DNA of 64,000 bases from Dactylellina haptotyla (lineage: Eukaryota > Ascomycota > Orbiliomycetes > Orbiliales > Orbiliaceae), in assembly GCA_031310005.1 (NCBI GenBank), contig CM062384.1, positions 806,001 through 870,000 of the forward strand, written 5' to 3'. The notes beneath the pieces are model-generated. The model worked only from the letters and a program-made list of their open reading frames with translations, made no database searches and had not been told where the DNA came from. This document shows positions 11,055 to 53,900 of the stretch, in pieces. The translations under genes were made by a program, and so were the position numbers. The first letter of the stretch is position 1; every line of letters begins with the position of its first letter.

Positions 11055-11200
11055 GCGGGTTTAGCTCAGTTGGGAGAGCGTCAGGTCAGTTCTTTCTTGT
11101 TTACATTAACACCAGTTCGTCTTTACTAACTTCTAGACAGACTGAAGTCCACTTCAATCAATAAATCTGAAGGTCGTGTGTTCGATCCACACAAACCGCA
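11055..11200 (+). tRNA. tRNA-Phe (GAA) with two insertions
   Basis: Phenylalanine tRNA. With two segments removed it folds as a cloverleaf: acceptor stem GCGGGTT/AAACCGC (one mismatch, 5-68), D arm with TAGCTCAGTTGGG (A box), anticodon GAA at 11144-11146, T arm GTGTG-TTCGATC-CACAC (B box), and discriminator A at 11200. Insertion 1 (11085-11140, 56 nt) splits the anticodon stem between positions 30 and 31 and looks like a spliceosomal intron. Insertion 2 (11148-11164, 17 nt) follows G37, the usual site of nuclear tRNA introns, and contains TTC able to pair with the anticodon. A T-run at 11212-11216 gives a Pol III stop. Every base of the tRNA proper is present, so decay is unlikely. Confidence 0.9.
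11085..11140 (+). other. Spliceosomal-type intron inside the tRNA-Phe gene
   Basis: The 56-nt insertion has the exon-intron junction CAG|GTCAGT (one mismatch to the U1 consensus CAG|GTAAGT), a perfect TACTAAC branch motif at 11124-11130, and the 3' end ACAG|A, 11 nt after the branch A. Removing exactly this GT-AG segment restores the anticodon stem TCAGA/TCTGA. The first five intron bases (GTCAG) repeat the last five exon bases. It sits away from the position 37/38 site that the tRNA splicing endonuclease normally cuts. Splicing by the spliceosome is inferred, not shown. Confidence 0.72.
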
Positions 11201-11211
11201 GTGTCCTTATC

Positions 11212-11216
11212 TTTTT
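11212..11216 (+). terminator. RNA polymerase III terminator
   Basis: A run of five T residues lies 11 nt after the discriminator base of tRNA-Phe, as expected for Pol III termination. Confidence 0.75.
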
Positions 11217-49720: not shown

Positions 49721-51724
49721 TTATGCACCGAATCGTCTATTCCGCTTCGACAAGTCCAACAGACTTCTCAAGAAGGTCGACTGCTGGAGAGCCGGCCAGT
49801 TCTCCTCGACAATGGCGAATTCCGCGTGGTGGGACTCCCATAGGGCGAATCCGCTCAGCCTGTTCTCGCCACTGGTTCTTAATATCGCATCGATAGTTGG
49901 CAGACCCAGCTGCGCAGAGTAAATCTGGCGGGAAATATCCGCCTCCGTAACCGCCTCGACAGCTTCTTCCAGAGAAAGACCGTCGTGCTTGATTTTCGCG
50001 CTGACAGCCATCTTGGTGGCACGGGTAACCTCGGAGCGTCCACCGTAGCCGATAGCAATCTGCAGGTTGAACTTGGTGTTGTTCGCAGTAGCAGCTTCCG
50101 CTTTATCAACCACTTCATTCAGATAGTCGGGAAGGATAGACCTGTCACCGACGACTCTAAAACGGACATCTGGTATCGAGAAGCCCGTGTCGCCCGTCAT
50201 CATCTCACGGATGTAGTCAGCCATCATAGAGAACAAGGGGTTAAGTTCTTGAGGGCCTCGCTTCAAGTTGTCATCCGAAAGAGCCCAGACAGTCAGGTTC
50301 TCAACGCCAGAGCTGAAAGCCCAGGACATGACTTGGAGAAGTTTGTGGGCACCGACTTGGTGACCTGCAAGGACGCTGCCCAGGCCATTACCCTTTGAGT
50401 AGCGACGGTTGCCATCCATGATGACGCCTAGATGTCGTGGTGGGTGGCCAGGGCTACCTGCAAGCTTCCCACGGTAGTACGAACATTTAACCATTTCCAC
50501 GGCGTCGTGCCGGAAGCCAGGGATCTTTGGCATGGGTCGTTCGTCTATCGCCATTCTGGGCAGGTGGGCTTCCATATCTGCAAACCGTCGGAGAGTGTGG
50601 CCGGGGAGGTTCACAGGGACACCTTTCTCTTTGATACCGAATATTTCGCGGTATAAATCGAGAGGAACACCCGCCATACGAGGGTTTCCGGCGACGAGGA
50701 GGTCGAGCGTGCCGTCAAAAGTAAGCTCTGAGGGACAGAGACTGTAGTGGAAGTAGGAGAGGAAGGAGTGTACTTTTCGGACGCACCACCAAGCCGCGTG
50801 TTCGATACGGTTCTGGTGCTTTATGCTGTTATGATCTAACACATTGGTCGCAATCTGTTTTACAAAGGTCCTGAGAAGAGCCAACTTGATTGAGGTTATC
50901 GGTTTTCTCAAAAACTGTCCGTAACCATACTTTCGAGCTTCGGTACGAAGACTGCAAAGTCTGGAATTCCAGATGTAAAACATCAACGGCTCATCGGAGT
51001 CGAGAGGTATTTGACTTCGTAGGTATTCTTCGATTTCAACCATGGTGTTCGGTACCTTTCTACCGATGTCTTTGGTGTTCAATTTGTCCGCAATGCCCAT
51101 AATACCCTTGACGATTCCGTCAATTTCTTCTGGTGTAATATGGCCCAAGAGTTCATGCGCCTTTACCATCCCGTATACAAAGGTTGCGAAAACCAGAACG
51201 TTGTTCTCGAACACAAATAACGGGATGTTACGGTGGAGCTTCTGCAGCCATTTGATAACCTGCTGTCTTTCGCTGCTGTTGGAACGGATGACGATGTAGA
51301 TGAAACCGAGGGTACGAATTACACGGCGCCAAGGGTCCGACTTGTATGTGCTGTGTGCTTTGAGGGCTTTCGCCATTTCGGGATGCGATAGTTGGAGAGC
51401 GGAGGCGATGAAGACTGCAGCGACCATGATGTCGCCACGGTCAAATAGGGCATGTAGCTCCTCGAATGAGGGGTATTTGTTCCGCCATATCATCCGAGTA
51501 GATTTGACATCTTTCCATCGTCGATAGAGTTTGATTGAATAGTGTGTAATCGTGATAGCTGTAAAAAGGAAAAATACAAGCAGAGTGCTTGTCAGTAGGA
51601 CTATTGTCGAATCCATATTGCTCAGGTTGATTGACGGCATTCCGGCCAACAGGGAATTTAGAAGTTTGACCATCCTTATATAAACCCTTCCAAAATACCC
51701 GGTTTTGATAAGTAATATCGACAA
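49721..51724 (-). CDS. cis-Prenyltransferase fused to an MpaB/rubber-oxygenase-like N-terminal domain
   Basis: A 667-residue intronless protein. The C-terminal part (about 431-667) is a complete cis-prenyltransferase (UPP/dehydrodolichyl diphosphate synthase family, which extends farnesyl diphosphate with isopentenyl diphosphate). Seen: HLGVIMDGNRRY with catalytic Asp 437, GHQVGAHKL, ALSDDNLKR (for the usual FSTENWxR), FNLQIAIGYGGR, RTSGENRLSGFALWES and the basic C-terminus RNRRFG. The N-terminal part has a membrane segment (about 40-60) then a helical region (80-260) with ALQLSHPEMAKALKAHS, SDPWRRVIRTLGFIYIVI, IKWLQKLHRNI and VLVFATFVYGMVKAHELL, which resembles the MpaB/Lcp oxygenase domain formerly DUF2236 (PF09995). 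The cis-prenyltransferase call is firm; the oxygenase-like call is from pattern memory. The protein may start at an internal Met (17, 29 or 37). Confidence 0.85.
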   Translation of the reverse strand: MSILLIKTGYFGRVYIRMVKLLNSLLAGMPSINLSNMDSTIVLLTSTLLVFFLFTAITITHYSIKLYRRWKDVKSTRMIWRNKYPSFEELHALFDRGDIMVAAVFIASALQLSHPEMAKALKAHSTYKSDPWRRVIRTLGFIYIVIRSNSSERQQVIKWLQKLHRNIPLFVFENNVLVFATFVYGMVKAHELLGHITPEEIDGIVKGIMGIADKLNTKDIGRKVPNTMVEIEEYLRSQIPLDSDEPLMFYIWNSRLCSLRTEARKYGYGQFLRKPITSIKLALLRTFVKQIATNVLDHNSIKHQNRIEHAAWWCVRKVHSFLSYFHYSLCPSELTFDGTLDLLVAGNPRMAGVPLDLYREIFGIKEKGVPVNLPGHTLRRFADMEAHLPRMAIDERPMPKIPGFRHDAVEMVKCSYYRGKLAGSPGHPPRHLGVIMDGNRRYSKGNGLGSVLAGHQVGAHKLLQVMSWAFSSGVENLTVWALSDDNLKRGPQELNPLFSMMADYIREMMTGDTGFSIPDVRFRVVGDRSILPDYLNEVVDKAEAATANNTKFNLQIAIGYGGRSEVTRATKMAVSAKIKHDGLSLEEAVEAVTEADISRQIYSAQLGLPTIDAILRTSGENRLSGFALWESHHAEFAIVEENWPALQQSTFLRSLLDLSKRNRRFGA

Positions 51725-53900
51725 CGTACCACCCTTGTGTATATTATTTGCAGGACAGGTAAGGAATGTAGGAATGGATGTGGCTATTTATTCCCTATCA
51801 GCCGACCCATACGGCAGGGCCCAAGTTGCCATTCCATTCCATATCTAAAAGTCTGATCGAAAAGTCTGATCGAATAGTCTGATAGCAATCTCCCTTTTTT
51901 TTCTCATCACAATAGGATATAGGCAATTTCAAAATTCTTATGGTCTCGAAAATATGTATCCGGGTTTCCCTTACGAGCTCTGGACGATCTGATCCCGACT
52001 CGGTGTTACCTCTTTCGCAATCCCTGTCACAGCTGAATCAGTCTTTCAAAACAATCGGTGTCTCCTTGTTACTCAACCCTAATTCGCTCCGTTTCCTGGC
52101 GGAGGTTTTTTTCCCGCTTCCATCTGCACCCGAAAGTATCTTTCAATTTGCTGCAGACCCTGTCAAGCTGACACAATCACTTCGCCTGCATGGCCGAGTC
52201 CGAGCTGAGAGGTGTGGTAAGAAGGAACAAACGAAAACCTAGGAAAGTCTGACGAGGCCCTTGCTTCCAATTGACGTCAAAGGTCCCTGTGTAAACTTAA
52301 AGCCAATCTAAGCGACCAGGTGATTACCAGCAAATACCACGCTGATGCCTCAATCCAACTCAGAGGCTTCAAAATCGCAGCTAGCAGAAATATCTCCAAA
52401 TTCTTCGAAAAAGCTCTCCAATCTGCCACAAAGTAATAAAAAGGCTATACAGCTGCACACCACATCGGGGTGGATACACGGAGGCGTACGGAACCAAGAT
52501 CTATGTGTTTTTTCCGGATCTAAACTAAAATTAGCTGGACGATTAGCGAGCTCGAACTCTAAAAAGACAGGTGCATACGCGCCGCGATCTATCAATTATG
52601 ATGCACGTAAAATCTTTTTCTAGCAGGTTGAGCACCGCAGCTGCAGACCACACTTTAGGGCATCGAAACCGAACTCAAATTTGCGATAGAAAACATATAT
52701 TTCGCTCGCTCCTCGTGGGGGCATTTCCTTCGTTTGATACCTGGTTGTACTATTTCCAGCCGCAACTACTAGCTAGCTACTCTTCGGTTACCCCTGGGAA
52801 TGAAATATTAGTTGGTTCTGTACTAGAGGAGCTTCCAGCGAGTGAGACACTGTTGAAGCCTGTCCTCCCACACAACAAACCCTACACAAATTAAACCCAT
52901 GAAGAGTGGGAAGCCCATTTCACCCCTGTCCTTGACGAAGCTAATGGAACAGACCCGTCCGGAAAACTCCCATTGTTTTTACTGGCGAGAACTGGCGAGA
53001 TCAACACCAAGGTGTCAGGGTCCTGTTCCTTAGCCTACGGTTTGCTACCACAAGTCGTCCCCAAAATCTCCTACTACGCACGCACAGATAGTTTCAAATT
53101 GGAGGATCTGGCGGCTGCGATAGCGATTCGCAAATATGCATTCTCACATGTCTTTCCAGAATCGTCTCTAACTCCACATATAATAATACGTCGAATAAGT
53201 ATAATTGTCTTATTATTGACTAGGAAGCCCTAAACCCCAAGGATATTGAGTGCTTCAAGGCAATAAATCCCCATATAACCTCGAGAATTTAATTTGGAGG
53301 GAAACGGCTAGTCCGAGATATCAATTCTCCTCAATTATTAGCTCGGTATCAAAAAAAATATTTAGCGCCGTAGCTTTGTCCGCATATTCAAGGTTAAGGA
53401 AGGTGCAAAGGCTTCTGTGACGTGGCGCACAGGAATGCAGGAATTGATATCAGAAGGGTATCGATAGTGTACTTTCGGCCTCAGAGCTCAGCTAGTTCAA
53501 TCGCTAGAAAATGGTTTGCGGGTCTGGATCTAGATCTCGTTGATAAAATTTTCCGATCATGCAGCCAAACGAGATCTATCGCGCTCGTAAATTCCAAACT
53601 CTCACAGCGAAAATGTGCGATATTACGCAACAAGGTGGTTCTATGCAACATTTCGAATATTTTCTGGAAGACTAGTGGACGCCATAAGACCTCTTGCAGA
53701 AGGCGTACGCGCCATCCGCATGGCACGAACCTGCATGACCGAAATCGTGAGTGATCCGACTAAATTTCAAGATTAGGTACGTGTACTAAAATAAGTACTT
53801 ATATAACCATCAACAATTGGTGCCTAACTCCCAACCTCATCGAAAATATCGAATAATTACAGAATGCTCTAAATAACAACGCTCGTGACAGGTGATGAAA
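51725..53900. other. Gene-poor stretch with possible relics
   Basis: About 2.2 kb. The first part is the fusion gene's promoter. Open frames at 51940-52242, 52345-52623, 52571-52894 and 52907-53233 have protein-like segments but no domain I recognise and no joining splice signals I trust. A frame at 53422-53754 has an F-box-like hint (LDLDLVDKIFRSCSQTRSIALVNSKL) too weak to call. Confidence 0.4.

Follow-up and report, generated by a model that had tools for sequence, protein, structure and literature searches.

How can a tRNA be made from a gene that is interrupted twice, once at the customary place beside the anticodon and once, within the anticodon stem, by a sequence with the marks of a pre-mRNA intron? 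The question is raised by a locus of Dactylellina haptotyla. In the stretch of DNA analysed here (the window; 64,000 nucleotides, C6:806001-870000), a complete tRNA-Phe(GAA) is spread over positions 11055-11200 of the plus strand, with inserts of 56 and 17 nt. An earlier note on this DNA had counted all 73 tRNA bases, and the sum of the exons (11055-11084, 11141-11147 and 11165-11200) and the calls of ARAGORN bear it out. Exon 1 (tRNA positions 1-30), which holds box A (TAGCTCAGTTGG), is identical in three paralogs; exon 2 (positions 31-37), delimited by comparison with paralogs and by ARAGORN, holds the anticodon GAA; exon 3 (positions 38-73) holds box B (GTTCGATCC) at about 11180-11188, and is followed by a TTTTT at 11212-11216 that is, from its sequence, a likely Pol III terminator. 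The 17-nt insert (11148-11164), after position 37, is the normal tRNA-endonuclease intron that the note took it for: ARAGORN recognises it, all four tRNA-Phe genes found in the genome have an intron there, and a TTC within it is able to pair with the anticodon.

The 56-nt insert (11085-11140), between tRNA positions 30 and 31, is of another kind. It opens with GTCAGT (11085-11090) in the exon context CAG, contains the branch-site motif TACTAAC (11124-11130), whose branch A would be 11129, at a distance of 11 nt from the end of the intron, and closes with ACAG (11137-11140). When 11085-11140 is deleted, the call of ARAGORN is a tRNA-Phe(gaa) interrupted by a 17-nt intron, and when both inserts are deleted, a 73-nt tRNA-Phe(gaa); with the inserts retained it names the locus tRNA-Ile(aat). 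Scans of the whole window with ARAGORN in bacterial mode and with Rfam at its gathering threshold called no tRNA, and Rfam applied to the locus alone gave a tRNA match of 42.7 bits. Because CAG is repeated, several shifts of the insert would restore the tRNA; only one of them gives an insert bounded by GT and AG. Folding of the pre-tRNA gave an uninformative z of -1.46. Elsewhere in the window (49721-51787, minus strand) lies one open frame with domain matches to mpaB/rubber-oxygenase and cis-prenyltransferase, which may be a fusion or a pair of neighbouring genes.

A search of the genome for paralogs (39.8 Mb in 11 contigs; all four candidates scored) found four tRNA-Phe genes, including that of the window. 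Two of them, C2:1275k and C2:1276k, are uninterrupted at 30|31 and retain a canonical intron, and these two genes thus define the edges of the 56-nt insert, so that its boundaries and signals stand as the earlier note had given them. The fourth gene, at C2:2854k, answers the note's proposal to look at the other copies: at the identical site it has a diverged GT-AG insert of 60 nt. The remainders of the two insert-bearing genes are identical at 89 of 90 positions, and both inserts begin with GTCAGTT, carry TACTAAC at the same distance, 11 nt before the end, and close with AG (ATAG in the paralog, ACAG in the window). As wholes the two inserts align better than any of 500 shuffles; once the donor and the stretch from branch site to acceptor are taken away, 79 of 500 shuffles align equally well. 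Retained signals within diverged bodies are the pattern that is expected if selection acts mainly on splice signals. An ACAC-AGTTC in the body is also aligned between the two, and part of the likeness may therefore be plain common descent. ARAGORN names the C2:2854k gene Phe when both introns are taken out and Tyr(gta) when the canonical one is left in, as it likewise does for the two insert-free genes.

The existence of insert-free copies bears on one alternative, which is that the insert-bearing genes are dead or silent, pseudogenes whose tRNA is supplied by other copies. The earlier note had reasoned that intact tRNA-Phe copies carrying the whole supply would make this a silent insertion; two of the four genes do lack the insert, and to that extent a silent Phe insert is possible. 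The exons of both insert-bearing genes, however, are identical to those of the insert-free C2:1276k, and the splice signals stay while the bodies drift, neither of which is what decaying genes would suggest. More informative for this alternative are the other tRNAs of the genome that have inserts of the same form.

Two tRNA-Leu(CAA) genes, one with a 64-nt insert (C7:305940-306113, plus strand) and one with a 78-nt insert (C1:3300865-3301053, minus strand), are likewise split at 30|31, in both cases by GTATGT...CTAACATA...YAG. Without their inserts the genes are identical at 106 of 111 positions; any likeness between the insert bodies is weak, 34 of 500 shuffles aligning equally well. With the GT-AG inserts deleted, ARAGORN calls both as Leu(caa) with a canonical intron, and when the two tRNAs are paired by hand, a U-U mismatch remains in both anticodon stems, at 29-41. 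A search of the genome with the GT-AG-free sequence, in which all 13 candidates were scored, found these two genes only, both interrupted at this one site, and no intron-free Leu(CAA) copy; within the limits of that search, the escape by way of a silent copy was thus not found. On these sequences tRNA-Leu(CAA) is a stronger case than tRNA-Phe. UUG codons could alternatively be read by a tRNA-Leu(UAA), the gene for which we read in locus L039 and which ARAGORN names Ile(tat).

The fifth case differs in its site. A tRNA-Arg(ACG) gene (L097; C1:2328182-2328316, minus strand) carries a 63-nt insert, GTAAGA...GCTAAC...CTAG, at 57|58, after the TTCG of the T-loop. Spliced, it is called by ARAGORN as a 72-nt tRNA-Arg(acg); unspliced, it receives no call, and in Rfam neither this locus nor the unspliced C2:2854k Phe gene has a tRNA match at E up to 1. 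The insert is present in one of the three full-length Arg(ACG) genes found and the other two are intron-free. L097 has U4-A69 where both intron-free genes have C4-G69, a compensatory pair in the acceptor stem that again speaks against a pseudogene. The intron divides the B box of the exons, and a B-box-like AGTTCGATTCT lies inside it. Since half of the four Phe genes and two of the three Arg(ACG) genes lack the insert, such inserts could be tolerated in little-used copies, and the Phe and Arg inserts may stand in minor copies. Given the intact exons, the compensatory pair and the Leu(CAA) genes, we nonetheless consider it very improbable that the insertions are simply dead or silent.

The spliceosomal reading of these inserts can be set against introns of the same genome. 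In three protein searches the top match was a D. haptotyla protein, at 99% identity for anthranilate synthase, 93% for Sec31 and 96% for a P450, which puts the genome in the Orbiliomycetes, among the nematode-trapping fungi. Spliced alignment of D. haptotyla proteins to three window genes gave 12 introns of 49-92 nt (median 57.5), with CTRAY in 11 and YAG in 10. A further comparison comes from U6 snRNA, of which the genome has two matches. The better, which we take as the main gene (L104 ~265-435; C3 ~3497864-3498034), has a 67-nt mRNA-type intron, GTAAGT...GCTAAC...TTACAG, directly upstream of CGATACAGAG; its 3′ exon is confirmed by the Rfam alignment, which continues upstream into the intron, and the 5′ exon is presumably where its resemblance to S. 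pombe U6 would put it. The other match (L076, C1:6867785-6867885, minus strand) has no intron, looks diverged in its 5′ part and is perhaps a pseudogene. The U6 intron contains a B-box-like GTTCGAATCC, a situation echoed by the intron of L097, and the S. pombe U6 intron holds a B box. The six RNA-gene introns (five in tRNA genes and that of U6) are 56-78 nt long, within the range of the protein-gene introns; all six begin with GT and end in YAG, in each of them CTAAC precedes the end by 11-18 nt, and RCTRAY occurs in five of the six as against 10 of the 12 protein-gene introns. Their donors are GTCAGT (twice), GTAAGA, GTATGT (twice) and GTAAGT. The inserts thus have the GT/YAG ends, branch motif and host-like length and signals of U2-type introns, the exception being GTCAGT, whose C at +3 is present in none of the 12 protein-gene introns of the window. 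The host genes, for their part, look like functional tRNA genes: they have box A, box B and T-runs after all five, and their spliced products are called as tRNAs, excision of the GT-AG insert alone giving Phe(gaa), Arg(acg) or Leu(caa) in four of the five, with the C2:2854k gene as the exception.

A different possibility is that the inserts are additional tRNA-endonuclease introns, cut at 30|31 by the Sen complex as in archaea, red algae and nucleomorphs, with GT-AG and TACTAAC incidental. To our knowledge, an intron in the T-loop, such as that of the Arg gene, fits no rule of fungal tRNA endonucleases, and the inserts are not at the canonical site, 37|38. GT, CTAAC and YAG occur in all five tRNA inserts and are retained while paralogous bodies diverge, which tells against their being incidental. 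Precedent does exist, since non-canonical archaeal tRNA introns include 30/31 and ectopic tRNA introns are present in C. merolae and G. theta, according to the account in PMC4090602. None of the five inserts passed a strict 4-bp bulge-helix-bulge test, but neither did the two canonical introns to which it was applied, so that it does not discriminate. We regard cleavage of this kind as very unlikely here. Least credible is a mobile, introner-like or transposon remnant with GT and AG at its ends by chance: the 5′ end of the Phe insert repeats the flanking GTCAG and the Arg insert ends near a GTTCGAT copy, as duplication-based gain might leave them, but the Phe and Arg loci, used as queries against the genome, brought up no further copies of the inserts except the Phe paralog, and such an element would account for the origin of an intron and not for its removal.

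Chance resemblance can be put in numbers. Of the 127,889 56-mers on both strands of the window, 444 (0.35%) start with GT and end with AG, and 40 (0.03%) additionally have CTRAY 8-40 nt before the end; for stretches of 56, 60, 63 or 66 nt, GT...CTRAY...AG occurs in about 0.03%. We infer that it is not by chance that such inserts occur in three kinds of tRNA, and in every one of the five intact genes that have a non-canonical insert. This count leaves out a 41-nt Arg fragment on C6 and four odd tRNA-like sequences (L172, L173, L175 and L176). The latter have a good T-arm but mismatches in the acceptor stem at about positions 5-6, and three of them have CTTCAC in the presumed anticodon region; they are possibly degenerate tRNAs or a tRNA-derived element.

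The five introns are a lower bound, because several isotypes were not recognised in our census of the tRNA genes. The Rfam model RF00005 gave 63 matches (63 of 1538 first-look candidates scored), 62 of them above the cut-off and 12 of those on C11, and a search with the genome's own tRNA types gave 41 (40 of 51 candidates scored), with 15 from the Leu search (13 of 13). A first exact B-box pattern had 79 sites as against 29 for its reversed control (six on C11, 11 in known genes, the other 62 read); a second had 64 as against 32 (two on C11, 14 in known genes), and among 20 sites read of the other 48 no tRNA was called. Nine tRNA sequences used as a DNA query matched just four initiator tRNA-Met genes, already known. 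By our tally about 74 nuclear tRNA genes were seen, among which no Trp, Tyr, Cys, His, Pro, elongator Met or Val(AAC) genes were recognised; the published genome, under the name Monacrosporium haptotylum, has 40.4 Mb and 149 predicted tRNA genes (PMC3828140). C11 (249,811 bp) is likely mitochondrial. Its tRNA matches repeat at a spacing of about 140.71-140.72 kb (89180 and 229899 are an example), as they might if the assembly had gone almost two times around a circle of about 140.7 kb. Against public collections of prokaryotes and viruses, a long Phe pattern had no matches and a shorter one had 38 and 4 sites, none of which, on examination of all 42, continues as tRNA-Phe; a gapped Phe pattern had no matches in viral contigs.

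These observations lead us to propose, with a probability of roughly 0.86, that the 56-nt insert of this nuclear, Pol III-transcribed tRNA-Phe gene is genuinely a spliceosomal intron of the U2 type, and one of at least five in tRNA genes of this genome, two in Phe and two in Leu(CAA) genes at 30|31 and one in an Arg(ACG) gene at 57|58. The earlier note had reached the spliceosomal reading from the Phe locus alone, and it gains support from the diverged Phe paralog, the GT-CTAAC-AG inserts of Leu(CAA) and Arg(ACG), and the mRNA-type intron of U6. In such a scheme, Pol III would transcribe the gene from box A and box B as far as the T-run, the nuclear spliceosome would excise the GT-AG intron and so restore the anticodon stem, and tRNA endonuclease and ligase would afterwards free the Phe and Leu precursors of their canonical introns. 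That the genes are transcribed and spliced, that the steps follow this order and that tRNA supply may depend on the spliceosome is here what the gene structures suggest. We lean slightly toward the further view that in this fungal lineage the spliceosome has to act on a Pol III pre-tRNA before cytosolic tRNA-Leu(CAA), and a share of tRNA-Phe and tRNA-Arg, can be produced, with two unrelated splicing machines working in series on one tRNA and the spliceosome directly gating supply. A tRNA requiring both machines would, if true, tie pre-mRNA splicing to translation through tRNA supply, and would mean that the spliceosome can accept a tRNA precursor made by Pol III. The introns would also add new examples of structured RNAs that have gained introns, and tRNA finders may miss or misname such genes, as ARAGORN did in giving Ile, Asn or His, or no call at the Arg locus.

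It is informative to view these introns in light of known systems. The earlier note knew of no established spliceosomal intron in a nuclear tRNA gene, and among the literature matches listed, by title and start of abstract, none reports one, although earlier reports are possible. The string "spliceosom" is absent from the text of a review of tRNA introns (PMC4090602) and of the tRNAscan-SE 2.0 paper (PMC8450103), and a 2026 review describes tRNA splicing as spliceosome-independent. Archaea, Cyanidioschyzon and nucleomorphs have extra tRNA introns at sites like 30/31, sometimes beside a canonical intron; in the archaea and Cyanidioschyzon these depend on a bulge-helix-bulge and the tRNA endonuclease, and in nucleomorphs the removal route is said to be unknown. 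Unlike the introns described here, none of these is credited with GT-branch-AG signals in the relevant parts of those sources (PMC4090602, PMC3978253). The rDNA of lichen fungi, as outlined in PMC8527467, also has ectopic spliceosomal introns in genes for stable noncoding RNAs, one of them 57 bp, but the hosts are rRNAs and not tRNAs. Another point of comparison is given by fungal U3 snoRNA introns, whose donor is mostly GTRWGT, branch RCTRAC/RCTRAY, acceptor YAG and branch-acceptor distance 6-36 nt in the rules outlined in PMC5832005; the six RNA-gene introns here fit these rules, GTCAGT being the least usual donor. U3 is a Pol III transcript in the same account, as would be the hosts here, although it is not a tRNA, and its paralog introns are almost always very similar, whereas those described here have diverged. 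Finally, the mRNA-type introns of fungal U6 snRNA, as in S. pombe (PMC10484740), are likewise GT-AG introns with a branch site in a Pol III gene; here, in contrast, the host RNA is a tRNA, which normally has a splicing route of its own, independent of the spliceosome.
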